Shown here: positions 22,982 to 48,068 of the stretch, in pieces | Position numbering within the stretch: the stretch's first letter is position 1 | Layout of the letters: each line of letters begins with the position of its first letter | Virus record (IMG/VR): IMGVR_UViG_3300017788_000001 | Coordinates: 1 to 61,219 of that record | Reading direction: 5' to 3' (one strand) | DNA from: a virus | DNA length: 61,219 nt | Notes under the pieces: generated by a model | The model's input: only the letters and a program-made list of their open reading frames with translations | What the model was told of the DNA's origin: nothing | Databases searched by the model: none | Translations under genes and position numbers: made by a program

Positions 22982-23080
22982 ATAGGATGTGTGGCGCGGA
23001 CGTTGTGGACGAGTCCACCTCCTAAAGAGTCAATGATTAACGATTAAACGTAGCAGCCAGTGACATCAGGAGAAAACAAC

Positions 23081-23644
23081 ATGCTTCACACCACATTAAA
23101 GCACCTGCGTTATCATTTCGCTTGTATGCCACGCTATAGGAAGCTGCGTGAAAGTCTCCCGCGCGATCATGCTTCTGATACGCCTATCAGCCTGTTGCAT
23201 GTCCTTGAATTCAATGGAATCAAGGATGCCGTGTGGGCGCTCCGGGCGACGATCGAGCCAGACGGAGAGACGATGGCTCGGGAGTTCATCTGCCGCGTTA
23301 CCGAGAATGTATTACCTACCTTCGAGGGGCTGTTCCCAGACGACAAGCGTCCTCGCGAGGCAATTGAAGCTGCTCGCGCCTACAACAAAGGCACGATCTC
23401 CGCAGCGCGTCTCCATGCGAAGTACCTCGCCGCCCGCGATGCATACATCAGCGTCTGCGCCCTCCGTGCGCTCTATGCCACAGGCGTCGGAAGAGTCCCT
23501 CACTTCGCCCTTCTTGCCACCGCCCAACACTCCTGCCACTATGGTGCCCGCACTGTTCTCGATTTCACTTACTCTCCTGTCAGACGAAAAGCATGGACGG
23601 CTTGCTTCCGTGAACTTCTGGAGCAGTACGGTGCTCAGCCATGA
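23081..23644 (+). CDS. Hypothetical protein resembling Imm5-like phage proteins
   Basis: A 187-residue helical protein. ATG 23081 has AGGAGA at correct spacing; the open frame upstream (to 23060) has no such signal. The stretch LFPDDKRPREAIEAARAY followed by SAARLHAKYLAARDAYISVC, and the C-terminal VRRKAWTACFRELLEQYG, resemble a family annotated as putative immunity protein Imm5 found in many phages. That family's function in phages is unknown. A TTAACGATTAA palindrome lies 34 bases upstream. Confidence 0.65.
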   Translation: MLHTTLKHLRYHFACMPRYRKLRESLPRDHASDTPISLLHVLEFNGIKDAVWALRATIEPDGETMAREFICRVTENVLPTFEGLFPDDKRPREAIEAARAYNKGTISAARLHAKYLAARDAYISVCALRALYATGVGRVPHFALLATAQHSCHYGARTVLDFTYSPVRRKAWTACFRELLEQYGAQP

Positions 23645-26259: not shown

Positions 26260-26649
26260 ATGCATTTCTTTTTCTACGGCACATTGATGTCGGGATTCTA
26301 CAACAACAACTTTCTCACGAAGTTACCGGGCAGCAAGAAACTGTTCGACGCGACAGTGAGGGGCTACAAGCTGTGGGGTACGGGACGTATTCCCATCGCT
26401 GTCAAGAGCAATGACCGAGACGAGCTGACGCACGGCGAAGTGTGGGAAGTGAGCAATCCGTATGCTGTCGCTGCTCTGCATCAGATGGAAGTGCGTGCCG
26501 GATACAAGGCCGTGGAAGTCACGGCTGCGAACGTACCTGAAGCAGAGTATATGGAGGGTGTCTACATGTACGTCCACGACGAGCAACACGTGCTCGGCGA
26601 CTGGATGAAGCCTATCCCCAACAATAACTATCGAGAGTGGAGAAAGTGA
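26260..26649 (+). CDS. Gamma-glutamylcyclotransferase-like protein
   Basis: A 129-residue GGCT/AIG2-fold protein. It begins HFFFYGTLMSGFYNN, the family's signature (YGTLM with the substrate-binding loop), and has the expected strand YKLWGTGRIPIAVKS and the acidic segment GEVWEVSN. The fold removes gamma-glutamyl groups as 5-oxoproline from amines or peptides. In phages such genes occur with amidoligases and ATP-grasp ligases, which this genome has at 29.2-33.7 kb. The catalytic Glu is likely within the GEVWEV or later ALHQMEV segment; I cannot place it with certainty. Confidence 0.82.
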   Translation: MHFFFYGTLMSGFYNNNFLTKLPGSKKLFDATVRGYKLWGTGRIPIAVKSNDRDELTHGEVWEVSNPYAVAALHQMEVRAGYKAVEVTAANVPEAEYMEGVYMYVHDEQHVLGDWMKPIPNNNYREWRK

Positions 26650-26801
26650 TGGAAATCCTCTATGGCCCGGCGGCATTCCTCATCGTCCTCGCGGCAGCAA
26701 TTCTGATTTCTGGTGGTGTAGCTATCATCGTGATGGTGGTGAGTCTCACCATTCGCATGATGTGGGACATCATCACTAAGCCGAAGCAGTCACGTTATTA
26801 A
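26649..26801 (+). CDS. Small membrane protein
   Basis: A 50-residue protein, one long hydrophobic segment (FLIVLAAAILISGGVAIIVM and following VVSLTI) with a short basic tail. Start overlaps the previous stop (TGATG) and the stop lies in a TTAACAGTTAA palindrome. Too short for usual cut-offs. Unknown. Confidence 0.6.
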   Translation: MEILYGPAAFLIVLAAAILISGGVAIIVMVVSLTIRMMWDIITKPKQSRY

Positions 26802-26821
26802 CAGTTAAACAGGAGTGTGTC

Positions 26822-27049
26822 ATGAAAATCGTACTGTTGTTGATATTCCTGCTTTACGTCTTGCCGATGGTGACCGTTCTGACAGTGCTCGCCTCCGAAT
26901 ACCGTAAGGGCAGGCTAGAGAAGAATCTGGTGTTCAATGGCGTTATTGTCGCCATCACACCGACTCTTAATCTGGTCTGTCTGTTGTGGGCCGTGGGGTC
27001 AAGACTTGTGGACATCATCTCACACGCAATCACCGGAAGGAAGCGCTGA
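26822..27049 (+). CDS. Small membrane protein, two hydrophobic segments
   Basis: A 75-residue protein with segments at about residues 3-24 (IVLLLIFLLYVLPMVTVLTV) and 38-58, separated by a basic loop (EYRKGRLEKN). AGGAG lies upstream of ATG 26822, and a palindrome precedes it. Overlaps the next gene by one base. Unknown. Confidence 0.65.
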   Translation: MKIVLLLIFLLYVLPMVTVLTVLASEYRKGRLEKNLVFNGVIVAITPTLNLVCLLWAVGSRLVDIISHAITGRKR

Positions 27050-27351
27050 TGAAATTTCCTGTACGTGCTGTTGACAATCGCCCGTCCATCACCGCACAAG
27101 AACGTCTGTTCGTGCGTCAGTTTGGGGACAAACCTGCTGTCGTGAAATACACGGGGCGTGAGAGCCTTGTCGGGCTACGTGTGCTGGGTAAGCATAGCGG
27201 CTTACGAATCGAGCAGAACGCAGACGGACGGTACATCCGTGCCCTTGACATCGTGAACGGTGTTGAGGTTCCTACCACCAGAAAGCTCAAGCTTCGTTTC
27301 CGGGACAGCGCCAAGATGCTGGTGCCCGGTGTGCGTAGCTGGGTGAGATAA
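27049..27351 (+). CDS. Basic hypothetical protein
   Basis: A 100-residue basic, beta-rich protein (MKFPVRAVDNRPSITAQERL). ATG 27049 has AAGGAAG upstream and overlaps the previous stop (TGATG). No motif recognised. Confidence 0.65.
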   Translation: MKFPVRAVDNRPSITAQERLFVRQFGDKPAVVKYTGRESLVGLRVLGKHSGLRIEQNADGRYIRALDIVNGVEVPTTRKLKLRFRDSAKMLVPGVRSWVR

Positions 27352-27371
27352 CCAAAGGAAATAACAACCAA

Positions 27372-27473
27372 GTGAAACGTAACAGTCATGAAATGAGCCA
27401 CCTGCTGGCTCTCTTGATCGGCGTAGGCATGATTTGTGCCTGTGTCATCGCCTCCGCAGCAGTTATGAAGTAA
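27372..27473 (+). CDS. Very small membrane peptide
   Basis: A 33-residue reading frame from GTG 27372 after AAGGAA, encoding MKRNSHEMSHLLALLIGVGM and a Cys/Ala-rich hydrophobic end. One membrane helix. Supported only by the start signals and hydrophobicity. Confidence 0.4.
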   Translation: MKRNSHEMSHLLALLIGVGMICACVIASAAVMK

Positions 27474-27545
27474 GTTGCAGGCTCGCCTGCTCCTCGTTTT
27501 AACGATTAAACCCAACACATCCACTACACTTCAAGGAACAACATC

Positions 27546-27959
27546 ATGAACGACAACTCCGTCCGCTTCCTCCACTATCGTGCCTTCGCGAATGACGGCA
27601 CAGTCCTTCCCTACGGCGGCGCCACTGTCGCCTACCGCAAGATCGGTCCGGGCCAAGTGGCTTACGCCGTGGCACGCTGCCGTGACAAGACCAAGACGCC
27701 GGAAGTCAAGAGCGCCTACTCCGACAACTTCAACCGTCGTCGCGGCCGTGACATCGCTCTCGGTCGTCTGATGGACGACAGTGCAGGCAAGCGTCAGGAA
27801 ATCGGTACAGCTCCGGGCAATGAGCAGGCTACGTTCTGGGAATACATGGACCAGCGTATGCAGGACAGTCTCAGTTACAAGCGCCGTCGTCGTGCAGCCA
27901 CTCCGCTGTCGCCCGTCGATGAGAGCAGCTGCGCATGCGCCGCGTCATCCTGCTGCTGA
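27546..27959 (+). CDS. Hypothetical protein with Cys-rich tail
   Basis: A 137-residue soluble, Arg-rich protein with a C terminus ESSCACAASSCC, unusual for a cytoplasmic protein and possibly metal binding. AAGGA before ATG 27546; a TTAACGATTAA palindrome lies 37 bases upstream. Overlaps the lipoprotein gene that follows. Unknown. Confidence 0.65.
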   Translation: MNDNSVRFLHYRAFANDGTVLPYGGATVAYRKIGPGQVAYAVARCRDKTKTPEVKSAYSDNFNRRRGRDIALGRLMDDSAGKRQEIGTAPGNEQATFWEYMDQRMQDSLSYKRRRRAATPLSPVDESSCACAASSCC

Positions 27960-28162
27960 TCGCGGCCATTATGGCTGCTGCGTGTACTGAACACGCCGTA
28001 GTAGCAGAAAAAGAAATAGCCAATGCATATAAGGTGTGCGCAGACAACGGAGGTCTCGCGGAAGTCAGGGCCTCTAATGTAGGCCCATCTTATCAGTGGG
28101 TTAGTCAAGCCTACTGCCGGAATGGCGCCCGTTTTTACTTTCCTCACAAGGTATCACAATGA
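27935..28162 (+). CDS. Putative lipoprotein
   Basis: A 75-residue protein with a signal peptide and lipobox (VILLLIAAIMAAACTEH, Cys at about residue 17), so it would be lipidated and exported. The mature part has further Cys residues (KVCADN, AYCRNG). It overlaps the preceding gene by 25 bases and has no obvious ribosome binding site. Exported phage lipoproteins outside the lysis module often act in superinfection exclusion; here that is inference. Confidence 0.6.
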   Translation: MRRVILLLIAAIMAAACTEHAVVAEKEIANAYKVCADNGGLAEVRASNVGPSYQWVSQAYCRNGARFYFPHKVSQ

Positions 28163-28335
28163 TTCGTCCATGTGTTTCTTCCTGCGGCAAGAAGCCGCGC
28201 AGCCAAGATCAGCTTCATGGTCAGGGCAATCGCGTGTTCAACGAGCAGCCCGCTAAAGATGGCCAGCAGGCGTTCAAGTGCACCGTCTGTGGTGCGATCA
28301 TCACCCAGTCCGTATCATCGAAGGAATCCAAATGA
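28159..28335 (+). CDS. Small zinc-ribbon protein
   Basis: A 58-residue protein with CVSSC near the N terminus and CTVCG near residue 42, a four-Cys zinc ribbon. Starts on the preceding stop (ATGA) and its own stop overlaps the next start. Unknown role, perhaps a regulator. Confidence 0.6.
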   Translation: MIRPCVSSCGKKPRSQDQLHGQGNRVFNEQPAKDGQQAFKCTVCGAIITQSVSSKESK

Positions 28336-28583
28336 GCAAGACCACCAAGTTCATCAAGACCAGCAAGTTCCCCATCACCTTCGACCGCCTGCATCCGGGC
28401 AGTACGTTCATCATCCACGCCGAGCGTAGCCGTGGGTTCAACTTCTCTCGCGACTACACCGTCTACCGCAAGGCCACGGACGCTGAAGGCTTCTACGCCT
28501 ACCCCGCGCACGACAAGACCAAGGCAGCATGCCTCATGCCTTCCGACATGGTGTGGCCGGTGAAGGAACAAAGGAGCAGCTAA
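28332..28583 (+). CDS. Small hypothetical protein
   Basis: An 83-residue basic protein (MSKTTKFIKTSKFPITFDRL) with a compact beta pattern. ATG 28332 overlaps the previous stop and has AAGGA nine bases upstream. Unknown. Confidence 0.6.
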   Translation: MSKTTKFIKTSKFPITFDRLHPGSTFIIHAERSRGFNFSRDYTVYRKATDAEGFYAYPAHDKTKAACLMPSDMVWPVKEQRSS

Positions 28584-29230
28584 TGGCTCGCATTTTCACA
28601 TGTGATGCAGTGATGTGCTCGAAGCTGCTTCACACCAGACGTGAGCAGCTGGCGCGCGCCGGGCTAACGGTCATGGACATCGTGTATGTACCGGGCTTGT
28701 GGGCAGGGACAGCCAAGGCTTCGCAAGCGCTTTACATGGAGGATATCAACGAGGAACGAACTGCCGCTCATGGTGGCGCCCTTGGTATCATCTATGACAC
28801 GCAGGTAGAGCTGCCGGCGTCACTTCGAGAAGTAGGCTTCACAGGTACAGGTACCTTTTGCTGCCAGTCTATCTGTGAGTCGGGACCTTTGGGAAATAAC
28901 TTCTATCGCGCAGCTGCTCTCCTTCCGTGCACGCTGTTGCCTCTCTATAATCTCAATGACGAGAGTATGGGGCGCACAGCGTTTTATGGAACACCGACGG
29001 GCGCTTTTAAACGAGTGCATTACCCGTCAGTCGGTCCCTCTCGTTCTTCGCACGCATTCGATCGTGCACGAATGACCAGCACCTCTGAGGCTGTGGACAG
29101 ACTCGGATCGGCAGGCCGTATTGAGGCGAGTGTTCTTCTTGCCAGTGCGTTTCGAAGAAGTAAGCGTTCCATCCTCACCGATAGTAGCTACGAAACTTCT
29201 CTCCCATCATCGTTGCAAGGTACCATTTAA
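28583..29230 (+). CDS. Hypothetical protein
   Basis: A 215-residue protein, not recognised. ATG 28583 overlaps the previous stop (TAATG) and has AAAGGAG. The first 115 residues look folded (ARAGLTVMDIVYVPGLWAGT), while the last 100 are Ser/Arg-rich and less regular, as if the frame had drifted or the tail is disordered. Its stop lies in a TTAACGGTTAA palindrome. Confidence 0.55.
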   Translation: MARIFTCDAVMCSKLLHTRREQLARAGLTVMDIVYVPGLWAGTAKASQALYMEDINEERTAAHGGALGIIYDTQVELPASLREVGFTGTGTFCCQSICESGPLGNNFYRAAALLPCTLLPLYNLNDESMGRTAFYGTPTGAFKRVHYPSVGPSRSSHAFDRARMTSTSEAVDRLGSAGRIEASVLLASAFRRSKRSILTDSSYETSLPSSLQGTI

Positions 29231-29242
29231 CGGTTAAACATC

Positions 29243-30124
29243 ATGACAATTCTCATCACGAAAGAACGATACGAACAGGAACTGACCAATGCGCCTAACG
29301 GTGCGTTACTGCGAAACTTCGCCAGCATGCTCGGCAGAACCCCCACGGCTGCAGACTACAAGACGCTGCAGACGCGTTACATGACGCACCTCCATATGGC
29401 TGCTGAAGATCCTGCGGACGTTAGGAACTGGTCGCCTCACTGGCTGAAGTTCGGCAAGAGTACACGACCGTGGCACTTCGTCAGCCCCGCGTCTGTCCTT
29501 CCCGCCGATCAAGTGTGGGTGGGGTTCGAGGTGGAGACAGGCTATCACTCACGAGAAGCCCTAACCACTGCGCTGGGCAAGCTAGCTCGTTGCAAGCAGC
29601 TCATCGCGCTGGACGTGGAGGGTAGTGGCAGGCAGCCTATCGAAGTGACATTCTTCCCTGTCGCACTGGCTGATATGGAGAAGAAGGGCGGTCCGTCTCG
29701 TATCATCAATATGTCTACTTCTGTTCCCCCAGCAACGCACGATCCTGACCGTCTGGTTGGCACGCACTTCAACTTCAGCACACCTACCATGCGTAGCTCC
29801 GGTATACAGTTCGATGTGAATGGGGTTGGACATGCTATTCAAAACCTCACTGGCGAGCAGCGTGAGCTTCTGTTCGGTAGATCACGTGTGTACGGCCCCA
29901 CTCCCTACTGGCAAGGCACGCACGTCGAGTGCAAGTGGTTCAACACCACATACAACAAGAGCATGTGGAAGCGCTATTGCCGTGTCATGCGTGCGTTCAT
30001 TGCTGAAGTACAGGCTGTGGAGGCAGGTGCTCCCCAGCGCTGGGGCGCCTTCTTCAACACGCTCGCTGGGCGTGAACAGACACGTCTCATCAGAGAGGCG
30101 AACAGGAGCCGCCGTGCTAGCTAA
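29243..30124 (+). CDS. Amidoligase-family enzyme A (COOH-NH2 ligase)
   Basis: A 293-residue protein of the glutamine-synthetase-fold amidoligase type. VGFEVETGYHS near residue 92 is the GxExE metal-binding strand, QPIEVTFFPV near residue 131 the second acidic strand, and GTHFNFSTPTM near residue 173 the HxN-type strand. Such enzymes join carboxyl and amine groups using ATP. It starts the cluster with the ATP-grasp gene (overlap 11 bases) and class II amidotransferase genes. The start lies six bases after a TTAACGGTTAA palindrome. Substrate unknown. Confidence 0.75.
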   Translation: MTILITKERYEQELTNAPNGALLRNFASMLGRTPTAADYKTLQTRYMTHLHMAAEDPADVRNWSPHWLKFGKSTRPWHFVSPASVLPADQVWVGFEVETGYHSREALTTALGKLARCKQLIALDVEGSGRQPIEVTFFPVALADMEKKGGPSRIINMSTSVPPATHDPDRLVGTHFNFSTPTMRSSGIQFDVNGVGHAIQNLTGEQRELLFGRSRVYGPTPYWQGTHVECKWFNTTYNKSMWKRYCRVMRAFIAEVQAVEAGAPQRWGAFFNTLAGREQTRLIREANRSRRAS

Positions 30125-30965
30125 CATCCTTCGACGACGTGGGCTGGGCAAGGGCAGCACGTCTGCTATTCACGCCATGAGTGAGGGCAGGATCGGGGTT
30201 GTCCGTAGTGACGATGCTGTCGCCGTGGCCGCGCTCGACTCTTCCCTTCCCCTGATTCGCTGGGGCTGCACGTCACAAACCCGACACCGAGGCCCCCAGC
30301 TGAATACGTCCGCATCAATCCACTGGTGCAACGACAAGCGCAGCGGCAGACTTGCGATGCAGGACGCTGGTGTGTCTGTGCCGGAAACGTGGGACGCTGG
30401 TGATTTTCTGTCAGCGAACAGAGAAGCGCTGTCTTATGTGGCGCGCCCTGTACATCACGCTCAGGGACGCAATCTGCTGGTCTTCGACGGTAATCGCCCA
30501 GAGCAACTGAGGGATTTCGTGAGCCGGACCGGAGGTGGTTATGTGTCACGTCTTATCGACAAGGTGGCGGAGTATCGCGTGTTCGTGTGCCGTGGCCGTG
30601 TTGCATGGGTGGCTCGCAAGCATCCGGGCAATCCCGACGACGTGGCGTGGAACGTGGCACGTGGCGGACGTTTCGAGAACGTGCGCTGGAACGACTGGCC
30701 GATGGAGTCCATCAAGCAAGCTCTTGCTGCAGCCCGTCTCAGTGGCACAGACTTCTGCGGTGTGGATGTGATGGTGGATGCTGACAACAGGGCTTACGTT
30801 CTGGAGGTCAACAGCGCTCCCTCGCAGACCAGCGAGTACCGCCAGCGCTGCACCACTAAGGCACTGCTGTACACGCTGGAGAACATGGACCAGACGTTCG
30901 AGTCCCCAACTAGATGGCGTTCATACAAGGATGTCATCCATCCAGCACTGAACACAGGAAACTGA
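30114..30965 (+). CDS. ATP-grasp ligase (RimK-like)
   Basis: A 283-residue ligase starting at GTG 30114, with AGGAG six bases upstream; the longer open frame before it is not translated as its start lies inside the amidoligase gene. Conserved segments: VARPVHHAQGRNLLVF near residue 105 (nucleotide-binding Lys/Gln loop), EYRVFVCRGRVAWVARK near residue 150, and DFCGVDVMVDADNRAYVLEV near residue 212, which holds the Asp and Glu that bind magnesium; NSAP follows. It would form a peptide or amide bond through an acyl phosphate. Neighbours suggest joint action with amidoligase and glutamine amidotransferase. Confidence 0.88.
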   Translation: MLANILRRRGLGKGSTSAIHAMSEGRIGVVRSDDAVAVAALDSSLPLIRWGCTSQTRHRGPQLNTSASIHWCNDKRSGRLAMQDAGVSVPETWDAGDFLSANREALSYVARPVHHAQGRNLLVFDGNRPEQLRDFVSRTGGGYVSRLIDKVAEYRVFVCRGRVAWVARKHPGNPDDVAWNVARGGRFENVRWNDWPMESIKQALAAARLSGTDFCGVDVMVDADNRAYVLEVNSAPSQTSEYRQRCTTKALLYTLENMDQTFESPTRWRSYKDVIHPALNTGN

Positions 30966-30966
30966 T

Positions 30967-31587
30967 ATGTGCGTAGCAATTGTAATCCCGGCAGGTAAGC
31001 GTATCTCACTTCAGCAGGTACGTGCCTGCCACACATCCAACGATGATGGGTGTGGCCTCGCCTATGTCAAGGGCAAGACGGTCAAGATCATCAAGGGGCT
31101 GTTCGAGCCCGACGAGTTCTACCAGAAGTATCTGGAAGTAGCAGACACGTATGGCGACAAGGCCATGCTCATGCACTTCCGTATCGCTACGATGGGCAGG
31201 GTGGCCGACAGGAACTGCCATCCGTTCTCTATCTGCGGGGGTGCCATGATTCACAACGGCAGTCTGTGGAGCGGACCGCTCACCAACGACAAGTCGGACA
31301 CTGCGGAGTTCGCGGAAATGTTCGGCAAGATGATGAAGGAGAAGTACGTATCCGCATCGCTGGACAAGATCGACAAGGCCGTTAGCTACAACAAGCTGGC
31401 CATGCTATATGGGTCTGGTAGGTACTACATCACCAACAGTAACCAGTGGCATAATATCGACGGCGTATTATTCTCCAACATCAACTGGAAAAGATTCGTC
31501 GACCAGTCTCCTACGCTTACGCAAGCCATGATCGACGAGGCGTGGGACGAGCACTATGCGTGGGGCGGCAGGGGAGGTGCTCACTGA
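30967..31587 (+). CDS. Class II glutamine amidotransferase A
   Basis: A 206-residue Ntn-hydrolase. Cys2 after the initiator Met is the nucleophile (MCVAIVIP), HFRIATMGRVADRNCHPFSI near residue 76 has the conserved Arg and His-Pro-Phe, and MIHNGSLW near residue 96 the oxyanion Asn-Gly. It would release ammonia from glutamine. No synthetase domain is attached, so the ammonia acceptor must be another protein, most likely a cluster ligase. Starts one base after the ATP-grasp gene. Confidence 0.88.
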   Translation: MCVAIVIPAGKRISLQQVRACHTSNDDGCGLAYVKGKTVKIIKGLFEPDEFYQKYLEVADTYGDKAMLMHFRIATMGRVADRNCHPFSICGGAMIHNGSLWSGPLTNDKSDTAEFAEMFGKMMKEKYVSASLDKIDKAVSYNKLAMLYGSGRYYITNSNQWHNIDGVLFSNINWKRFVDQSPTLTQAMIDEAWDEHYAWGGRGGAH

Positions 31588-31949
31588 TGAAAGACAACAT
31601 GCACAACTACCGTGTATGCTTTCGCAAGAAAGGTGTCAACAAGGAAGTTGCCATGAGCATAGGCGTCGATGATCCGCAGCGTCTGGAAAAGATCGTCATG
31701 GACGTTGCGGGGGTCAAGTCGCTCGACGAGCTGGATCAGTTCGAGAGCCACCTCATCAAAAGCGACGGTACGACAGAGATCACGCAGCATGTCAAGGAAA
31801 AGCCCGTACCCTCTTCTATCATTACTACTCTACCGTCTCGTCCCGGCGATCTGTTCCACGAAAGCAACAAGAACAAACTTCCATCACCGATGGGAGTTCT
31901 CACCCGTTTCTTCAAGACAGCACCTGCGCAGGTAAAAGCATATGCCTAA
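31587..31949 (+). CDS. Hypothetical protein in the ligase cluster
   Basis: A 120-residue protein (MKDNMHNYRVCFRKKGVNKE) from ATG 31587, overlapping the previous stop (TGATG). Compact alpha/beta start, then a disordered Pro/Ser linker and a basic end (VLTRFFKTAPAQVKAYA). It overlaps the next gene by eight bases. Might be the substrate or a carrier of the modification system, but nothing in the sequence proves it. Confidence 0.6.
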   Translation: MKDNMHNYRVCFRKKGVNKEVAMSIGVDDPQRLEKIVMDVAGVKSLDELDQFESHLIKSDGTTEITQHVKEKPVPSSIITTLPSRPGDLFHESNKNKLPSPMGVLTRFFKTAPAQVKAYA

Positions 31950-32583
31950 TCTGGCTCAATCCCTAGGCTCCTCTTATTTCTCCGAGAGAATGAGTGGGGT
32001 CTTGTTAGTACGTGATGGTCGCATCCTGAGCATCACGTCCTACCACACCCGTGACAATTCCATCGAATGCCATGTCGTCGCCTCTCCCGATCACTCGGGC
32101 GAAGGTGAGTCTGTCCGCATCGACGCAGACCTCATCAATTCATATGACGACGTGAGTACGCCTGCCATGGGCTACGTGCGTGTAGGCGATCATCTATGGC
32201 GTGCTACACGAAACAGTTCGGGCCGCGCCGCTGGCGGATTCCTTCAGAGCGGCGTGCGCTGGGAACCGTCACAGCTCACATACCTCATGCAGCTCAGCGG
32301 TGCGGGTGTGTCAAACGCGCCTCCGGCTAGAGATGGGTTGATGTCCCTCTACTTCCCGGCGCACAACACGTTGTCGGAGTGGAGCGCTATGGTTGAGGGA
32401 GAGCTGTCCGGTCTCGTCTTGTCCAAGGACATCATCATCGAACCTACGGTGCGTAACGACCGTGACGAGTACGATGTGTTCGTGAAGGGCATCAACATCG
32501 GAGCCCTTAACCCGGACATGAAGATTAACCGTTATACCCCCAAAGAGAACCGTGACACCATCAAGGAGATTCTTGCGTCATGA
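31942..32583 (+). CDS. Hypothetical protein in the ligase cluster
   Basis: A 213-residue soluble protein (MPNLAQSLGSSYFSERMSGV), beta-rich in the first half. No motif is recognised. Overlaps genes on both sides by 4-8 bases, so it belongs to the same translational unit as amidoligase B and the amidotransferases. Confidence 0.65.
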   Translation: MPNLAQSLGSSYFSERMSGVLLVRDGRILSITSYHTRDNSIECHVVASPDHSGEGESVRIDADLINSYDDVSTPAMGYVRVGDHLWRATRNSSGRAAGGFLQSGVRWEPSQLTYLMQLSGAGVSNAPPARDGLMSLYFPAHNTLSEWSAMVEGELSGLVLSKDIIIEPTVRNDRDEYDVFVKGINIGALNPDMKINRYTPKENRDTIKEILAS

Positions 32584-33656
32584 GTAAGAAGCCTGTACAT
32601 ATGTACTGCGGTGGCCGCAGGATGCCGCGTTTAAGTACGGTGTCCGGTATGTGGCCTGACAGCAGCCTGTTCATCGGACTTGAGATCGAGGCAGAGAACC
32701 TGCGATACTCAAATCGTTCGCGGACAAGCGACGACGACTATAACACGCTTGCTGAAGGTGGCTGGTGTGTCGACAATGACGGCTCATTGCGCGACGACGG
32801 TCGTGAGTTCAAGTTCGCCGGCCCTCTCTGTGGTATGGACATCACCACAGCGCTGGACGCGTTCTTCAACGTGGTGTCGTTCACTCCGTGTCACCGCGCA
32901 GGCATTCACATCCACGTGGACTGGACGACGGTCGATGACGCGGACAGTCTGGCCACACTGATGGCTATCGCCTACGGTCTGGAGCCCGCGCTGTTCAGCA
33001 TCGCCGGCGAGGGGCGTAAGGAATCTTCATTCTGCCGCCCTCTGCAGGACATCGACCCAGAAAAACTGGCAGGCGCAGTTCGTTCTGGCTCATTCGAGTG
33101 GATGCACAACAATCTATTGCCGGGTATCGGGCGCTACTATGGCGTCAATCTCGCGTCTATTGCCAAACACGGTACGGTAGAGTTCCGTCACTTCCCTTCC
33201 TTGTGCGACAGACAGAAGATCGAAACGTGGATTAAGCTTGTGATGCTATTCCGCATCGCAGCCACCAATCCCTCACTGACTCCTGTGAAGGTGTGTGAGA
33301 TGATGTCTACTCCGGCAGGTATCCATGAGTTCTGTCGTGCCTACTTCGGGTTCCATGACCTGCACACACTGCTGCTGGACAACATGGACATCGGTGCTGT
33401 GGCTCAGCGCATGAAGCTGATGCACGGTTTAATTCGTGTCAGACCTGTCGCAAAGGCTACCGTCACCCGCTCTCATGCAGACAAGCTCAGCGTTTCTGCC
33501 CGTCGTTTCATCGACAAGAAATACCCACAACTACGTCAGCAGCGAGCGCGCGCTGCGGAACTGGTAAAGGAACTGGTCAATCCGAACGTGCATGAGTTCC
33601 AGAGATTCCAAGAAGATATAATGGCACGAGTGACTTCCGGCGTGGAGACGATCTAA
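32580..33656 (+). CDS. Amidoligase-family enzyme B
   Basis: A 358-residue amidoligase. FIGLEIEAENLRY near residue 31 is the GxExE strand; DGSLRDDGREFKFAGPL near residue 66 the second acidic strand; AGIHIHVDWT near residue 103 the HxH strand; and HGTVEFRHFPSL near residue 196 the final EFR motif. These are the glutamine-synthetase-fold active-site elements, more complete than in amidoligase A. A C-terminal helical part (from about 290) is extra. It overlaps the second amidotransferase gene by one base, implying shared stoichiometry. Confidence 0.85.
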   Translation: MSKKPVHMYCGGRRMPRLSTVSGMWPDSSLFIGLEIEAENLRYSNRSRTSDDDYNTLAEGGWCVDNDGSLRDDGREFKFAGPLCGMDITTALDAFFNVVSFTPCHRAGIHIHVDWTTVDDADSLATLMAIAYGLEPALFSIAGEGRKESSFCRPLQDIDPEKLAGAVRSGSFEWMHNNLLPGIGRYYGVNLASIAKHGTVEFRHFPSLCDRQKIETWIKLVMLFRIAATNPSLTPVKVCEMMSTPAGIHEFCRAYFGFHDLHTLLLDNMDIGAVAQRMKLMHGLIRVRPVAKATVTRSHADKLSVSARRFIDKKYPQLRQQRARAAELVKELVNPNVHEFQRFQEDIMARVTSGVETI

Positions 33657-34987
33657 TGTGCGGTATCATCGGTTTCATCAACGCCATGCCTCTATCCGGC
33701 ACCACTGGCGAGCGTCATGTCAGCTATCTCACCAAGGCAGATGACGTGATGACCAACGGTGTCGTGGCGTGTAGCGTGCGTGGTATGGACAGCACTGGCG
33801 TGTTTCAAGTGAACGGTAAGGGCAAGGTATTCGTCCACAAGCTTCCCGTGAACGCTTCCATGTTCATTCAGGATAAGGTGTCGAAGCAGTTCCTGAAGGA
33901 CACTATGACCTCCCCAATCACCGTGTTCCACACGAGAGCAGCGACTGAGGGCCGAGTGAACCTGAATAACGCCCACCCATTCACTGCGCTGGATTCCAAG
34001 AACAGGCTGCTGGTGGGCGTGCATAATGGCACACTGTCCGGGTGGAAATCTGCCAAGGATTCCGGCCGCTTCGAGGTGGATTCTGAGTGGGCCATGAACA
34101 GGCTCGCTCAAGATCCGTTCGATGCATTCGAGGATTTCCGTGGAGCATGGTCTTTCGTCTATTGGAAGGAAGAGCAGCCGAGCGTGCTGTATTTCGCTCG
34201 CAACAAAGAGCGCCCTATGTGGATGCTGTTCACCAAGAACCGCAAGCACGCGATCTTTGGCAGCGAGCCGGGCATGCTGAGCTGGATTGCCCAGCGCGAG
34301 AACATCGACGTGGAAGACACTGTGTATGAACTTCCGGTTGACCATGCCGTGATTGTGGATGTACACGCAGACACGCTGGAAATCAAGCACGCATTCAACA
34401 GTCAACTGCCTGCCCCTAAAACGGTGTACGTTCCTACAGGCAGTTACAGCTCGACGACCATCTATCGTGACTCGCGTAAAGACACACTCAGCGCCACAAT
34501 GGCCAAGATTCTTAGCGAAGCTGCCGAGGCGTTTCGTAAGGGCATCAATACTACTGCTGCTCCGACCGCTGTTCAGCAGCCTGCTGCGGAAATTCCGTTC
34601 GAGGCTGGCGAGATCGCGCCCCTGACTCCAGACATGTTCGACAACGGAGTCGCCACCGACTCCGAGAAGAAGATGGCCGAGCAGGAGGGACTGTATGGAC
34701 AGGTGGTGGCGTTCACTCCTACTGATGCTCGCAAGAACTCCGTGTCCGGTACGATCACCGTGCTACGCAACGAGGGTGAACTTGCAGAGGCTGATGCATT
34801 CCTACGACACGGGCAGGAGGACCTGCCGCTAGAGGCTGTAGTGGAACAGTTCGCGTGGGTAGCTATCGCCGGTATGTACACTGTCAAGGACGTCCTGATC
34901 TATGTACTCGCTCCGCTCAATGAGATGGGCGAGGACACGATTGCCGACGAGGTAGCGTCGTACGTCAGCGATGATCTCCCGCGATGA
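33656..34987 (+). CDS. Class II glutamine amidotransferase B, extended
   Basis: A 443-residue protein with an N-terminal Ntn-type glutaminase domain (about 1-245): MCGIIGFINAM with Cys2, FHTRAATEGRVNLNNAHPFT near residue 93, GVHNGTLSGW near residue 121 and GSEPGML near residue 202, as in asparagine synthetase or GFAT. The remaining 200 residues lack synthetase motifs and are acidic, possibly a partner-binding region. Starts on the last base of the amidoligase B stop. Confidence 0.88.
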   Translation: MCGIIGFINAMPLSGTTGERHVSYLTKADDVMTNGVVACSVRGMDSTGVFQVNGKGKVFVHKLPVNASMFIQDKVSKQFLKDTMTSPITVFHTRAATEGRVNLNNAHPFTALDSKNRLLVGVHNGTLSGWKSAKDSGRFEVDSEWAMNRLAQDPFDAFEDFRGAWSFVYWKEEQPSVLYFARNKERPMWMLFTKNRKHAIFGSEPGMLSWIAQRENIDVEDTVYELPVDHAVIVDVHADTLEIKHAFNSQLPAPKTVYVPTGSYSSTTIYRDSRKDTLSATMAKILSEAAEAFRKGINTTAAPTAVQQPAAEIPFEAGEIAPLTPDMFDNGVATDSEKKMAEQEGLYGQVVAFTPTDARKNSVSGTITVLRNEGELAEADAFLRHGQEDLPLEAVVEQFAWVAIAGMYTVKDVLIYVLAPLNEMGEDTIADEVASYVSDDLPR

Positions 34988-35784
34988 GCGTCGCTGACTC
35001 AATCTCCCTTTCCTATTCGTACTTGCGTGAAGGGGAGTCCATCAATAGTCAGCTGTGCCCCGCTTGCGGGGGTGGGCACAGCAAGGAGAAATCGCTCACA
35101 GTCAGCCGTAGAAAGAGCAGGCTGGTGTGGCGCTGCTGGAGGGATGGGTGTCAGTCCGTAGGTATGTGCAACGACGGCGGTAGTTTAATCGTTAAACACG
35201 TCACCAAGCAGACTAAGTGGCTCAACTACAGGCTGCGTAAAATTCCGGAGGATCGATGCGAGCTGCTGCAGAACAAGGTATGTAACCGTCTGCTAGACGA
35301 TTGTCTGTGGACCGACGATCTCGGAGGCAGGTATGCATTTCCTGTGTACGATGCGTCTGGTAGTCTGAAAGGCAGAGTGCTGCGGTCATACGACAAAGAC
35401 AGTGCGCACACTAAAGCTTTGATAGACGTAGGTGATTACACGGGCTGCGCGTGGTCCGTGAACGGCGAGCATCCTGACATCGTGATGGTTGTAGAAGACA
35501 TCCCGTCAGCAGCAAGATGCGCCACGGAGCCCGGCGTAACGGGCTGTGCGTTGATGGGAACACACATCAGTGACGGTAAGGCGGAGGACATCAAGGACTC
35601 CAAGGCTCGCAGGTATTACATCTGCCTTGATCCGGGAGCTTTGAGCAGCGCGGTCAGGCAGACTGTGATGCTGCGTAACTCCCTTCCTCTAACTGTCATC
35701 CCTCTGTCGAAAGACATTAAAGATATGTCGCCCGAAGAGTTCGAAGCTCTGATGGCTAGCTTGAAGGAACACAAAGATGATTAG
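34984..35784 (+). CDS. DNA primase (zinc finger and TOPRIM-like)
   Basis: A 266-residue primase of the T7 gp4 N-terminal type. The zinc-binding domain shows LCPACGGGHSKEKSL and WRCWRDGCQSVG (four Cys; about residues 22-61). The TOPRIM-like core has IVMVVEDIPSAARCA near residue 162 with its Glu, and YYICLDPGAL near residue 210. In that last motif the usual DxD reads DPG, so the second Asp is absent. It is separate from the helicase gene, two genes on. Includes a TTAATCGTTAA palindrome (35185). It overlaps the amidotransferase gene by four bases. Confidence 0.82.
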   Translation: MSVADSISLSYSYLREGESINSQLCPACGGGHSKEKSLTVSRRKSRLVWRCWRDGCQSVGMCNDGGSLIVKHVTKQTKWLNYRLRKIPEDRCELLQNKVCNRLLDDCLWTDDLGGRYAFPVYDASGSLKGRVLRSYDKDSAHTKALIDVGDYTGCAWSVNGEHPDIVMVVEDIPSAARCATEPGVTGCALMGTHISDGKAEDIKDSKARRYYICLDPGALSSAVRQTVMLRNSLPLTVIPLSKDIKDMSPEEFEALMASLKEHKDD

Positions 35785-36439
35785 ATTCACGGTGGTTGAC
35801 AGACTGGTGCGCCTAGCGATGGCCGCCCTGTCACCGAGAGAGTGCGTGTACATGATGTACATTCTCGGGATCAGGAATGGCATACATCCGGGAGGCGCTT
35901 ATCTAGTAGGTGGTAACGAGATAGAAATTGAGAATGACCTGCGTACTAGAGACGCCGCGATGGGTGTACAGGAAGGCGTGTTCGAACTGCCTGACAGTGA
36001 GCGTCAAGTACAGGCTCCTCGTGGTAGGGGAGACGTAATGGGGCTTCTCAACACCGGCGCTGTTGGTACGATTATCTGTTTAGGCGTCCCGCATGAAGAC
36101 AGAGCACATGTGCGATGGACAAATGAATATGGGCCTTTATACCGAGATGCTACAGCTGATAATAGCAGGGGACAGACAAACGATCCTTATGAACAACCTG
36201 TAGTGCAGGAAGTCACGGGGTCTAGCACAGTATTCACAGCTCCTACACCGCAAGACGTGTGGATGGAGGAAGATGCACACCTGCATCTGGCCGAGCTGGA
36301 TGCGCGTAGAGAAGTGATTCAGGGCAGAACGCGCATTGTAGCTGTGGACGTAGAAGCGCCCGGTGCGAACATGTCTACAGAGCAGGTGAACGTGGCCTAT
36401 AGAGTGCTTGACACAGACTGTGACAACAGGAGACGTTAA
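35777..36439 (+). CDS. Hypothetical protein between primase and helicase
   Basis: A 220-residue acidic protein, not recognised. The first 50 residues are basic and helical (MIRFTVVDRLVRLAMAALSP); the remainder is beta-rich and acidic. It overlaps primase by eight bases and ends on the start base of helicase, so it may be a replication accessory, for example a helicase loader, by position only. Confidence 0.6.
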   Translation: MIRFTVVDRLVRLAMAALSPRECVYMMYILGIRNGIHPGGAYLVGGNEIEIENDLRTRDAAMGVQEGVFELPDSERQVQAPRGRGDVMGLLNTGAVGTIICLGVPHEDRAHVRWTNEYGPLYRDATADNSRGQTNDPYEQPVVQEVTGSSTVFTAPTPQDVWMEEDAHLHLAELDARREVIQGRTRIVAVDVEAPGANMSTEQVNVAYRVLDTDCDNRRR

Positions 36440-37650
36440 TGGAGAAAGTGCTGCTCAGCTCCGCACTGAATAGCCGTGAGGCGTTCTCGATATTCGCCAA
36501 GCACCTTGACCCCAAGGTAAAGAGTCGCGAATATCAGATTGTCATGCGGGCTATCAGCGACTATTACGCACGGGACGGTGACTGCACCAAAGTGGACCCT
36601 GCTGTACTGACAGAGCAGGTGATGGCTACGCTGCAGAATCCGAAGCACAAGGAGCGATTCGCGTCGCTCCTTGCCGAAGTGATTGCGCTAGACAGCTCAC
36701 CACCCAACGTCATCGAGCTGGTACTTGATGCCAAGCGTAACGAGCTGGCCGATCGCGTGGCCGTAGCACTAGCCAATAGGGACAAGGACGCAGACGAGCT
36801 AATCGACGAGTACAGGGAACTGCAGCGCGTGTCGTCTCTGGACGACATGATGTTCGAGGACGTTGTGTTCTTAGACTCCTCCAACATCGACGAAATTCTT
36901 AGCGAGGTGGTTAGCCCTGTCAATTACATGAAGCTCTACCCGCTGTCGGTCAACTCACGCGTCGATCAGAGACTGGCACCGGGCCATCACATCCTCACCT
37001 ACGGCCTGCCCGAGATGGGCAAGACTGCCCTTAACGTGACGTTCTCTGCGGGCTTCTGCTCGCAGGGCAAGAAGGTGATCTATTTCATCAACGAGGATAA
37101 GAACGAAGACATCTACACGCGTCACATGTGCTGTCTGTCAGGCATGTCCTACGACGCCATCCGTGCTAACCCGCAGAAAGCCAAGCAACTGGCGATGGAC
37201 GCGGGTCTTGAGAACCTCAAGGTGGTGGGCATATCGCCGGGTAACTTAACGATTATTGAACGCGTCATCGAGCTTGAGGAGCCCGACGCAGTATTCATCG
37301 ACCAGCTCATGAACCTGAACGAGAAGGGCGACGGGCTCACACAAGTGATGGGCCGAGGCTCGCGCGGAGCGCGTAAGCTTGTGAAGAAGTACGGCATCTT
37401 GGGTGTCAGTACAGCGCAGGCTGCGGACAGTGCGTCAGGCAAGGCAGTGCTGGATATCGGCGACGTTTACATGTCTAACATCGAAGTTCCCGCACAGTTC
37501 GATGTCATGATTGGAATCGGTGGTACGCCGGATCAACTCGCTACAGGACGGAGAGTCCTGTCCTTTGCGAAGAACAAGACGACAGGCGATCATAACCCTG
37601 TCGTCGTTAAGCTTCACCCGAGCATCAGTCGTTACACGGATGATGCGTAA
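36439..37650 (+). CDS. Replicative DNA helicase (DnaB/RecA-type)
   Basis: A 403-residue hexameric helicase. Walker A is GLPEMGKTALNV near residues 189-200, a form seen in phage DnaB-like proteins; NEDKNEDIYTRH near residue 218 is the expected catalytic Glu region; Walker B is AVFIDQLMNL near residue 285; and STAQAADSAS near residue 324 is the H3 sensor strand. It unwinds DNA at the fork with the separate primase. It starts on the stop of the gene before it (TAATG) and ends this operon. Confidence 0.88.
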   Translation: MEKVLLSSALNSREAFSIFAKHLDPKVKSREYQIVMRAISDYYARDGDCTKVDPAVLTEQVMATLQNPKHKERFASLLAEVIALDSSPPNVIELVLDAKRNELADRVAVALANRDKDADELIDEYRELQRVSSLDDMMFEDVVFLDSSNIDEILSEVVSPVNYMKLYPLSVNSRVDQRLAPGHHILTYGLPEMGKTALNVTFSAGFCSQGKKVIYFINEDKNEDIYTRHMCCLSGMSYDAIRANPQKAKQLAMDAGLENLKVVGISPGNLTIIERVIELEEPDAVFIDQLMNLNEKGDGLTQVMGRGSRGARKLVKKYGILGVSTAQAADSASGKAVLDIGDVYMSNIEVPAQFDVMIGIGGTPDQLATGRRVLSFAKNKTTGDHNPVVVKLHPSISRYTDDA

Positions 37651-44315: not shown

Positions 44316-47040
44316 CAACGCCATGGAGCAGTATTGGGCTAATTACGTACAAGCGTACATACGCTAGGACGAACGAAGATGGCGTTGTCGAGGACTGGCC
44401 TGACACAATTGAGCGAGTGATTGCAGCATCTGACACACAGCTGAACGTAGGGTTCACGGATGAAGAGAAGGAAAGACTGCGTGGCTACATGACGCAACTC
44501 AAGGGCACTGTCGCTGGTAGATTCCTGTGGCAGCTGGGCACTAGCACGATTGACAATCTCGGACTTCCTTCCCTGATGAACTGTGCAGCAGTTGTCGTTG
44601 ACTCCCCCGTCCGCCCGTTCACTTGGACATTCGAGAAGTTGATGCTGGGGTGTGGTGTAGGATTCAACATCCAGAGAGAGAACGTAGACAAGCTTCCTCC
44701 TGTATTCTTTGGATTCAAACCGCCCATTCGTCAGGACGACAGCAGTGCAGACTTCATTGTCCCTGATACTCGCGAAGGCTGGGTCAAGCTTCTTGAGCTG
44801 ACGTTGGAGAGTGCGTTCTATGGAAAGCGCCCCACACCGTTCACCTATTCAACACAGTTGATTAGAGGTAAGGGTGTCCCCATCAAAGGATTTGGCGGGG
44901 TGGCTAGTGGACCAGAAGACTTGTGCTGGGGCATCGAGAAGATCAGTCAGATCTTGATGAAGCAGGCCGGTAAGAAGCTGCGTCCCATCCACTGCCTCGA
45001 CATCATGAACATCATCGGAAGTGTCGTGGTGAGTGGTAACGTCAGGCGATCTGCACAAATCGCTATTGGTGATGCCACGGACATCGAGTATCTGAAGTCG
45101 AAGCGCTGGGACTTGGGAAGCATCCCCAACTGGCGTGCGATGTCTAACAACTCTGTTGTCTGCGACGACATCAACACATTGCCCGACGAGTTCTGGGAGG
45201 GGTACAACGGCAAGGGAGAGCCATTCGGTTTGATCAACCTAGAGCTGTCAAGGAAGTGCGGAAGGATTGGAGATGAGCGTTATCCTGATCCTGATGTGAT
45301 AGGCTACAATCCGTTAAAGTTAGCGGCCTTGCTGAGTAATCAGCATTGAATAATCAATCAAAAACGGTGAAAGTCCAGACCGGGCAATGCCGTGCCAATC
45401 CGATATGGAAGGTGTAACGACTATGAGTGATCCTAAAGAACTAATGAAGCGCGTCTCTTTTATGGTAATGGGAGATGGCGGTGTGTACAGAGGCGGCAAA
45501 GAGCACTACTTCGCCATGAACATGCTAAAGAAGAATATCGATTACGTCGAGTATTGCAGAAACACGCTGAGCGAGATCACAAACGCGACAGTGTACGAAC
45601 GCACTATCAGACCAGAAACAGACGGATTCCTGAGACAAGATCAAGTAAGGTTGCAGACTAGTTCTCACCCTTACTTCTCTAGAATCAGAGAGCGTGTGTA
45701 CGTTGACTCCTACAAGGGTCTTGATCCACACGCTATGAAACTTCTTGATCCAGAAGCGCTAGCTATCCTCTATATGTGTGATGGTAGTTGCTACACCAAG
45801 AAGGCAGGAGTCAGTCGCCTTGTAAACAACAGTTATTCAGTGAGTTTAAATATGAAGAGACTGTCATACGGCGACCAATTGTTTCTGAAGCGGGCACTAA
45901 GAGATAAGCTAGGGCTGGAATGGAATGTGAACAAGCACGGTTCTTACTGGTACCTACGTCTGAGGACGAAAGACATACCTGCTTTCTCTGCTATGATCGA
46001 ACCTTTCATCTTTGATAGCTTTAGGTACAAGCTCCCTTGGTTGAGATCCTCGCCAGAGGATCGTGAGATAGTCTGTTCCGTGCAGGAATGTGCGGAGGTT
46101 GACGGAAACGATCAGCCCCTGCTCGCAAGAGCAGAGTAACAATAAAGGTGCAGAACAAAGCCTTAACAACTTCGAAACGTGTTGTCTGGCGGAAGTGTTC
46201 CTTCCGAACAGTGAGTCGTATGACGAACTGCTGGATGTGCTGACACTGTTGTATCGCATCAACAAGCACTCGCTACGCTTGCCTTGTGTCACTGCTCCTG
46301 AGACGGAGAAGATTGTCCACAAGAACATGCGTATGGGCATCGGGATGACTGGCTATCTACAGGCCACGGAAGAACAGCGTGGCTGGCTAGCGCCTGCTTA
46401 CGATCAACTCCGTAGCTTCGATGCCTACTACAGCGATTTGAAAGGCTGGCCGCAGTCGATCAAGTTGACCACGACGAAGCCGTCAGGTACGTTGTCATTG
46501 CTACCGGGTGTCACTCCGGGTGTTCACCCGGGCTACGCTCAGTACATGATCAGGCGCATCAGAATCTCCGCAGACCATCCACTTGTGGAAGTGTGCAGGA
46601 GTCACGGGTATCACGTGGAGTATCAGCGTAAGTTCGATGGAACGGACGATTACAACACTGTAGTGGTGGAGTTCCCGTTCAGCTATCCGGAAGGCACGGT
46701 GCTTGCTAAGGACGTGAGCGCTATTGACCAGCTTGAGTTTGTCAAGAGAATGAACACGGAGTGGAGCGACAATTCAGTCAGCTGCACGGTGTACATCAAG
46801 CCTGACGAGCTTGATGGCATCAAGGCGTATCTCGCCGAGCACTACAAGGACAACTTCAAGTCGCTCAGCTTCCTGCTACATCAAGGTCATGGATTCGACC
46901 AAGCTCCTCTTGAGGAGATCAGCAAAGAACGCTACGATGAACTCGTGGCAAACACTCGCCCCATCGTGAACACAGAGCTTACGACGTATCTGGAGATGGG
47001 TGATGATGAATGTGTGTCGGGCGCATGCCCTGTAAGATAA
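44312..47040 (+). CDS. nrdJ: Class II (B12-dependent) ribonucleotide reductase, intron-split
   Basis: Exon 1 is 44312-45314 and exon 2 is 46148-47040, 631 codons after splicing. It matches the monomeric RTPR type: TPWSSIGLITYKRTYAR at the N terminus, LMNCAAVVVDSPVRPF, LGCGVGFNI, SGNVRRSAQIAIGDA, DPDVIGYNP then CAEQSLNNFETCCLAEVFLP, KPSGTLSLLPGVTPGVHPGY, and C-terminal ECVSGACPVR with the redox Cys pair. It makes dNTPs from NTPs using adenosylcobalamin and needs no oxygen. Homology demands translation upstream of the first GTG (44417); the only start-like site is ATA 44312, six bases after AAGGAGG. The intron falls within the codon for the radical Cys of NPCAEQ. Confidence 0.9.
45315..46147 (+). 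mobile_element. Group I intron in the reductase gene
   Basis: An 833-base insert after CCG-T and before GT-GCA, so splicing restores Pro-Cys-Ala-Glu-Gln. The 5' exon ends in T and the intron in G. The 5' part has GGTGAAAGTCC and AACGACTA, and the 3' part GAGATAGTCTGTTCCG and GCGGAGGTTGACGGAAACG, both shared with the capsid intron. Confidence 0.9.
45423..46139 (+). CDS. LAGLIDADG homing endonuclease in reductase intron
   Basis: A 238-residue protein from ATG 45423; an upstream ATG (45387) lacks a better signal. Two LAGLIDADG-type helices: VSFMVMGDGGVYRGG near residue 9 and LAILYMCDGSCYTKK near residue 112. It would cut the intronless reductase allele. Unlike the capsid intron gene, this frame runs through the conserved 3' core of the intron and stops eight bases before the splice site, so its last 25 residues are constrained by ribozyme sequence. 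Confidence 0.88.
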   Translation: MSDPKELMKRVSFMVMGDGGVYRGGKEHYFAMNMLKKNIDYVEYCRNTLSEITNATVYERTIRPETDGFLRQDQVRLQTSSHPYFSRIRERVYVDSYKGLDPHAMKLLDPEALAILYMCDGSCYTKKAGVSRLVNNSYSVSLNMKRLSYGDQLFLKRALRDKLGLEWNVNKHGSYWYLRLRTKDIPAFSAMIEPFIFDSFRYKLPWLRSSPEDREIVCSVQECAEVDGNDQPLLARAE

Positions 47041-47370: not shown

Positions 47371-47446
47371 GCGGGCATAGTTCAGTTGGTAGAACACAAC
47401 CCTTCCAAGGTTGGTGTCGTCGGTTCGAGTCCGACTGTCCGCTCCA
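47371..47446 (+). tRNA. tRNA-Gly (TCC)
   Basis: Acceptor GCGGGCA/TGTCCGC, anticodon loop CTTCCAA, T arm GTCGG-TTCGAGT-CCGAC and encoded CCA. First of a tRNA cluster. Confidence 0.93.
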
Positions 47447-47450
47447 TTCA

Positions 47451-47538
47451 GGAAGCGTGAGCGAGGGGTTTATGCTAGAGCTTTGCTAAAGCTCCGGCCC
47501 GAAAGGGTCCGTAGGTTCGAATCCTACCGCTTCCGCCA
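47451..47538 (+). tRNA. tRNA-Ser (GCT)
   Basis: Acceptor GGAAGCG/CGCTTCC, anticodon stem GAGCT/AGCTC with loop TTGCTAA, long variable arm around GGCCCGAAAGGGTC, T arm GTAGG-TTCGAAT-CCTAC and encoded CCA. Confidence 0.92.
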
Positions 47539-47541
47539 TAC

Positions 47542-47618
47542 ACAGCGTTAGTTTAATTGGTTAGAACAACAGACTTTCAATCTGTACGATGCGGGTTCGA
47601 CTCCCGTACGCTGTACCA
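47542..47618 (+). tRNA. tRNA-Glu (TTC)
   Basis: Acceptor ACAGCGT/ACGCTGT, anticodon loop CTTTCAA with stem ACAGA/TCTGT, T arm GCGGG-TTCGACT-CCCGT and encoded CCA. Confidence 0.92.
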
Positions 47619-47621
47619 TTA

Positions 47622-47679
47622 TGGGGTAAGAAATTCAAGTGAGCTTGAATTCCTCCGTTCGATTCGGAGCACCCCACCA
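47622..47679 (+). tRNA. D-armless tRNA-like element
   Basis: A 58-base unit in line with the tRNA cluster: acceptor TGGGGT/ACCCCA, a single long hairpin AATTCAAG/CTTGAATT in place of D and anticodon arms, a perfect T arm CTCCG-TTCGATT-CGGAG and encoded CCA. The middle hairpin loop is too short for an anticodon. A degenerate tRNA or a functional tRNA mimic. Confidence 0.6.
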
Positions 47680-47691
47680 ACAGGAAAACAA

Positions 47692-47859
47692 ATGACTGAA
47701 GTCACAATAACCAAGAAGCGTCTCGACGACCTACTTAAGGCGGAGGCAGAGCTAGACGCGCTACACGCTGGCGGTGTAGACAACTGGGAGTGGTATTACG
47801 AGTCCCTTAAGAACGCTGACCTAGCGGAAGACGACGATGAAGACGACGAGGAGGATTGA
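47692..47859 (+). CDS. Small acidic protein
   Basis: A 55-residue protein from ATG 47692 with AGGA upstream. A helical start (KKRLDDLLKAEAELDALHAG) and a tail of almost only Asp and Glu. Could mimic DNA or bind a basic partner; unknown. Confidence 0.6.
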   Translation: MTEVTITKKRLDDLLKAEAELDALHAGGVDNWEWYYESLKNADLAEDDDEDDEED

Positions 47860-48065
47860 TGAAGAAGCTTGCAATTCTAGCCCTAGCTCTTCTGCTGGCG
47901 GCTAATGTTAGCGCAGCCAGCAAGCCGCGAATCACGGGCGGCAATCTACCCCCGATCCCGAGCAAGCCACGTATCACAGGTGGTAATCTCCCGCCTATCC
48001 TAGCAGATTACATCTGCGTTCCGTCAGCGCCTCGTGCTATTCGGCGCTATTGTCAACCGAGGTGA
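47859..48065 (+). CDS. Small secreted repeat protein
   Basis: A 68-residue protein with a clear signal peptide (MKKLAILALALLLAANVSAA) and two copies of KPRITGGNLPPI in the mature part, then Cys residues (YICVPSAP, RRYCQPR). Start overlaps the previous stop (TGATG). The motif TGGNLPP also occurs in the repeat-bearing virion protein at 1924-2904. Periplasmic or virion-associated; role unknown. Confidence 0.65.
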   Translation: MKKLAILALALLLAANVSAASKPRITGGNLPPIPSKPRITGGNLPPILADYICVPSAPRAIRRYCQPR

Positions 48066-48068
48066 TTC

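Follow-up and report, generated by a model that had tools for sequence, protein, structure and literature searches.

The virus record IMGVR_UViG_3300017788_000001 of IMG/VR, analysed over its whole length (61,219 bases; hereafter the window), belongs to a podophage-like virus. The major capsid protein of this virus has 59% identity with its counterpart in Stenotrophomonas phage StenR_269. Between positions 26260 and 34987, the window carries genes for a gamma-glutamylcyclotransferase (GGCT), two class II glutamine amidotransferases (GATases), an amidoligase, a second putative amidoligase and an ATP-grasp ligase. We consider this gene set, with a probability of about 0.7, to be a divergent variant of the GGCT, glutamine amidotransferase, amidoligase and ATP-grasp cassette of podophages, with the amide chemistry described below. 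The combination is not new but of a known podophage kind, and the window cassette is a variant and not a plain member of that kind because the COOH-NH2 ligase is missing. Two results stand out: a partner protein, U, is assigned as a universal component of such cassettes, and the COOH-NH2 ligase is apparently replaced by a protein family termed A.

A variant cassette ahead of the replication genes

Ten plus-strand genes overlap or abut between 29243 and 37650, most of them preceded by a Shine-Dalgarno-like sequence, in the order A, ATP-grasp, GATase A, orphan open reading frame (ORF) X, U, amidoligase B, GATase B, primase, an unknown gene and DnaB helicase. An earlier reading of the window made from the letters alone (the sequence-only reading) had described the genes from 29243 as overlapping or abutting; this arrangement extends to 37650, the single overlapping operon of 29243-34987 continuing into the primase and DnaB helicase genes. 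The GGCT gene lies outside the operon, 2.6 kb upstream. The features are as follows.

26260..26649, +, GGCT/AIG2-like gamma-glutamyl cyclotransferase, 129 aa (PF06094, E 5.7e-14)
29243..30124, +, protein A, divergent amidoligase-like by motif order, 293 aa (without Pfam or PHROG match)
30114..30965, +, RimK-like ATP-grasp ligase, 283 aa, GTG start (PF08443, E 1.5e-7)
30967..31587, +, GATase A, small stand-alone class II glutamine amidotransferase, 206 aa (PF13230, E 6.4e-6)
31587..31949, +, orphan ORF X, 120 aa (no Pfam family; weak PHROG 20810, E 0.015)
31942..32583, +, U, conserved cassette partner protein, 213 aa (hhalign to a deep U profile)
32580..33656, +, amidoligase B (Amidoligase_2), 358 aa (PF12224, E 2.7e-11; PHROG 7469, E 2.4e-26)
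33656..34987, +, GATase B, class II glutamine amidotransferase with C-terminal extension, 443 aa (PF13522, E 6e-10; PHROG 4736, E 1.1e-47)
34984..35784, +, DNA primase, context gene of the same transcription unit with a 4-nt overlap with GATase B (PHROG 47, E 5.4e-14)
36439..37650, +, DnaB-like replicative helicase, context gene (PHROG 19, E 1.4e-34)

The original description of the cassette is reportedly that of Hardies et al. in 2013. In the LUZ24-like phage UFV-P2, genes for a COOH-NH2 ligase, a 186-aa hypothetical protein, an amidoligase, a GATase, an ATP-grasp protein and a GGCT stand before primase and helicase (PMC3890496), and a seven-gene 'peptidoglycan modification cassette' is described in HP1 and RIO-1 and also in phiEco32, 7-11, PA11, tf, MR299-2, LUZ24, PaP3 and CW02 (PMC5498523). 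Its proposed role has been restated as three unusual peptide linkages that serve superinfection exclusion or provide endolysin target sites (PMC11945000). The suggestion, made from the letters alone, that the window holds a peptide- or amide-forming enzyme set of unproven target and that such associations are known in phages is borne out. The HP1 cassette genes are expressed immediately after infection (PMC7082346), and the window cassette is probably likewise transcribed ahead of the replication genes and expressed immediately on infection. In a directed-evolution study of a LUZ24-like phage, missense mutations arose in the genes of the amidoligase and of the GATase in both evolved lines (PMC11450229). 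Such cassettes occur in many short-tailed phages, some of them candidates for therapy against Pseudomonas, E. coli and Klebsiella; what the cassettes do has been a matter of guesswork since the first comparative-genomics papers.

The window shares with the podophage cassette the GGCT, a class II GATase, Amidoligase_2, the ATP-grasp protein, U upstream of Amidoligase_2 and the position immediately before primase (34984) and helicase (36439). It differs in having neither a PF14395 COOH-NH2 ligase nor a class I GATase, in carrying a member of the A family and a second, small class II GATase, in the placement of the ATP-grasp gene upstream and not downstream of B, and in the additional orphan ORF at 31587-31949. 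A nucleotide search of the window against a phage collection gave no match. The closest counterpart is the cluster of StenR_269 (OR838459), where the genes were termed 'glutamine synthesis genes' (PMC10747016): GGCT, A protein, small GATase, ATP-grasp, U, amidoligase B, GATase B, primase and helicase are all shared, whereas StenR_269 has two A-family proteins, the second annotated 'L-glutamine synthetase', and tRNA genes within the cluster. ORF X has no detectable relative in StenR_269 or the other loci, and its equation with the StenR_269 ORF at the same place is unsupported, the two not being detectably related.

Census of cassette loci

A census seeded with the Amidoligase_2 proteins of three Zobellviridae phages returned 55 IMG/VR loci, all relatives of this amidoligase clade, and profiles made from annotated phages were run across all their ORFs. 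Class II GATase, COOH-NH2 ligase, U, ATP-grasp and primase are each present in 33/33 loci with full flanks, while a class I GATase is present in 29 of the 33 and the GGCT, a facultative member, in 11; the commonest order, G1-G2-C-U-B-AG-primase, is found in 20. Across these 33 loci, such cassettes regularly have two glutamine synthetase-like (GS-like) ligases and in most cases two glutaminases, so that the doubled set, which had seemed unusual from the letters alone, is the standard composition and not a doubling. Among 59 loci, only the window and StenR_269 are without a COOH-NH2 ligase. Since a helicase relative (L077) has the canonical set with the COOH-NH2 ligase, the swap is, on present sampling, specific to this lineage.

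Enzymes with conserved catalytic residues

Pfam supports the GGCT, the ATP-grasp protein, amidoligase B and both class II GATases, and the PHROGs agree; together with the catalytic residues, these matches confirm the identities that the sequence-only reading had given to the five genes, and its coordinates hold. The GGCT keeps the YGxL motif (as YGTL) and Glu77. The ATP-grasp protein matches the PHROG of S6 glutaminyl transferase (1.9e-19) and has the conserved ExR, Asp and ExN residues; its start is most likely the GTG at 30114, which has AGGAG upstream, rather than the ATG at 29820, the first one in the long ORF. Both GATases begin with Met-Cys (Cys2) and keep the HxR, HPF and HNG motifs, GATase B also retaining the DS motif, and relatives of GATase A are found in MEP401, StenR_269, Marvin and ChaoS9. 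Amidoligase B agrees with the Amidoligase_2 alignment (12 homologues) at each of its 19 invariant columns. Single-protein scans for relatives of amidoligase B and of GATase B returned none, and a PDB sequence search with the A, B and U profiles gave no useful match. No transmembrane-like (hydrophobic) segment was found in any cassette product, and all of the products look cytosolic.

U is a universal component of the cassettes

The protein encoded at 31942-32583 had been taken as unrecognised, peculiar to this operon and a possible substrate; it belongs instead to the core family U, which stands by Amidoligase_2 in all loci surveyed and has no obvious acceptor. Aligned to the U profile with hhalign, it gives P 8.7e-7 by itself and 9e-11 when the StenR_269 homologue is added, compared to P 0.0028 for the best other window ORF, and HP1 gp44 also matches the family. 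In each of 59 loci, Amidoligase_2 is preceded by a U gene of about 190 aa; 12 of these are references picked by position and 47 were found by profile. U is a universal component of such cassettes. The two genes directly abut or overlap except in six loci with 200-480 nt between them, and they often share a 4-nt overlap, as the window pair does. U may already be included among the seven cassette genes of Hardies et al. in 2013. Mass spectrometry of SU10 preparations detected the ATP-grasp protein, GATase, GGCT and a 23.3-kDa 'hypothetical protein' (PMC4281155), which corresponds to SU10 U by mass only; the gene numbers of PMC4281155 and RefSeq differ by one. In one IMG/VR contig (L029:5398-9807), the U-amidoligase_2 pair is present in two inverted copies.

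The U protein of PA11, modelled from 43 sequences including that of the window, reaches pLDDT 95.7 and pTM 0.89. Foldseek comparison of this model with the solved structures in the PDB found none matching (best E 0.08), and among its significant BFVD matches bearing a name there are only phage proteins; as modelled, the fold is apparently new. The conserved charged positions in U are Arg/Lys; no acidic residue is conserved, the C-terminus is not fixed, and no other residue stands out as an acceptor. A role as LysW-like carrier or tagged substrate was rejected for want of a conserved acidic or C-terminal residue. With these features, U looks more like a protein that holds a negatively charged substrate than like a carrier or a substrate for tagging, and more like an obligate partner of amidoligase B than like its substrate. 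As an always-present component, U offers a concrete handle: the amidoligase may fail in vitro without it.

The properties of U also bear on two other explanations of the cassette. There are RimK, R2K_2 and R2K_3 Pfam matches, and R2K ligases in phages are predicted protein-tagging enzymes (PMC4431377; PMC7824862), so the cassette might tag a host protein or ribosomal component with amino acids or peptides, with U, through its conserved Arg/Lys and weak, non-significant Tudor/KOW-like matches, as the target adaptor. We consider this unlikely, since two glutaminases and amidoligases indicate amidation and not tagging alone, and the Foldseek resemblance of U is insignificant at the E-value given above. 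The conserved basic set in U, together with the primase gene that follows in all 33 covered loci, could likewise suit a cassette that puts amino-acid-like groups on phage DNA or nucleotides, but early transcription accounts for the operon position and no base-modification enzyme was found among the scanned window proteins, making this explanation highly improbable.

Protein A as a candidate replacement for the COOH-NH2 ligase

The only relatives found for protein A are the two StenR_269 proteins, one annotated as hypothetical and the other as 'L-glutamine synthetase'; none was confirmed in the scanned IMG/VR and GTDB genomes. Protein A bears GFEVETG, D.EG.G..P.E.TFFP, GTHFNFS and HVECKWF in amidoligase order, and the ordered series GxExE / D..E / HxH/N / ExR/K is present in 3/3 A proteins and 69/70 B proteins. 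Among 20,000 shuffles of A, 31 contain the same series, as do 7 of the 1042 other ORFs (>=150 aa), one of these seven being a true amidoligase; the pattern was composed after inspection, and these counts are supportive, not decisive. A single-sequence AF2 model of A, made with no alignment, is uninformative (pLDDT 45). In the window and StenR_269, the A family, plus a second small class II glutaminase, apparently takes the place of the COOH-NH2 ligase of canonical cassettes. Such a natural swap points to an exchangeable step, with B, U, the ATP-grasp protein and the GATase staying.

Minimal amidoligase and GATase pairs in other viruses

Pairs of an amidoligase and a class II GATase are found in MEP401, Mycobacterium phage Marvin and a Christensenellales phage, and possibly in ChaoS9/phiCh1. 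They share with the window a small GATase akin to GATase A that adjoins or lies near an amidoligase or amidoligase-motif protein, and they differ in that no U, ATP-grasp or COOH-NH2 ligase was detected in the stretch examined. In Halobacterium phage ChaoS9 (L070:7728-9381), the uncharacterised gp45 with the amidoligase motif series adjoins a class II GATase, an arrangement conserved in phiCh1; the amidoligase call is weak (hhalign P 4.5e-4), and the pair is without U and ATP-grasp. The hosts of these haloarchaeal viruses have no murein, and a minimal pair of this kind may need a substrate other than peptidoglycan. In a podophage from Manatee Spring (L072:7001-8218), a class II glutaminase domain is fused to a GGCT, downstream of a weak amidoligase-like gene, and this fusion links the two activities.

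The minimal pairs in viruses of murein-free hosts are among the observations that fit a cassette making or degrading a small gamma-glutamyl or amidated peptide, by a glutathione-like logic, and acting on host metabolism or host defence with the cell wall untouched. A GS-fold ligase, an ATP-grasp ligase and a GGCT are the kinds of enzyme found in textbook glutathione metabolism, a class I GATase of the peptidase C26 type is added in most of the census cassettes (29/33), and all of the proteins appear cytosolic. An always-present partner with conserved basic residues would be unexpected for a simple small-molecule route, and no dedicated transporter or acceptor gene was seen; we regard this explanation as possible but doubtful.

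Proposed chemistry and target

The gene content, the catalytic residues, the layout of the operon and the relations of the families are established by the analysis. The formation of ATP-dependent amide or peptide bonds is well supported by the enzyme set, and we infer the reactions, their order, the target and the benefit as follows. The two class II glutaminases would free ammonia from glutamine, and the GS-like ligases (B, and A if correctly identified) would use ATP to activate a carboxylate, which would be amidated or joined to an amine. The RimK-like ATP-grasp protein may then add an amino acid via a further peptide or gamma-glutamyl bond, and the GGCT may clear unwanted gamma-glutamyl products, releasing 5-oxoproline. 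U, translationally coupled to amidoligase B, probably presents the negatively charged substrate. According to the published guess, a peptidoglycan precursor peptide is changed, and later phages would then adsorb or inject poorly, or lysis would be tuned. We tentatively favour peptidoglycan precursors as the most likely single target, because of this published proposal, the cytosolic appearance of the proteins and the early expression in HP1. The literature cited here contains no experiment on an altered peptidoglycan side chain in infected cells for any cassette member.

Several observations weigh against the reading of the window genes as a variant podophage cassette with this chemistry. No COOH-NH2 ligase (PF14395) was found in the ORFs of the window or of StenR_269 (E 1e-3 / 0.01), the rest of StenR_269 included, and no class I GATase anywhere in the window. 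Protein A is an amidoligase, if correctly identified, by motif only: the motif order is present, but A, which the sequence-only reading had called an amidoligase, has no significant match in Pfam (including PF12224/PF14395) or PHROG, and its hhalign comparison with the amidoligase B and COOH-NH2 ligase profiles gives P 0.01 or worse, in a weak test where the COOH-NH2 ligase against the Amidoligase_2 profile is also not significant (P 0.04). The cited cassette literature reports no biochemical test or reaction for any phage cassette member. In addition, the ChaoS9/phiCh1 pair, with hosts without murein, weakens peptidoglycan as a general target.

A further explanation draws these points together differently: U would be a new-fold adaptor for all such cassettes that holds a negatively charged, possibly nucleotide- or RNA-linked substrate for B, a new ligase family, A, would have taken over from the COOH-NH2 ligase in a single lineage of podophages, and the target would not be peptidoglycan. 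As a whole, this explanation seems to us rather unlikely.

Other features of the window

At 23060-23644 (+), in the phage early region, lies a gene for a protein with a putative immunity domain that is Imm-5-like (PF21805, E 1e-8). At 44417-47040 (+), ribonucleotide reductase is encoded in two ORFs (PHROG 367 positions 76-375 and 386-697), divided by a LAGLIDADG endonuclease ORF in another frame (45387-46139). A search of this split gene for Rfam introns gave no match, and the interruption is due either to an intron that went unrecognised or to a split of the gene by the endonuclease. The 2089-aa late protein encoded at 54842-61111 (-) matches no PHROG, and StenR_269 has in a similar place a 2271-aa protein annotated 'putative virion-associated RNA polymerase'. 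At 47371-48927 (+), tRNA genes for Gly, Ser and Glu are closely followed by an RNA ligase gene (PHROG 548, E 7.6e-34), and this proximity suggests tRNA repair.

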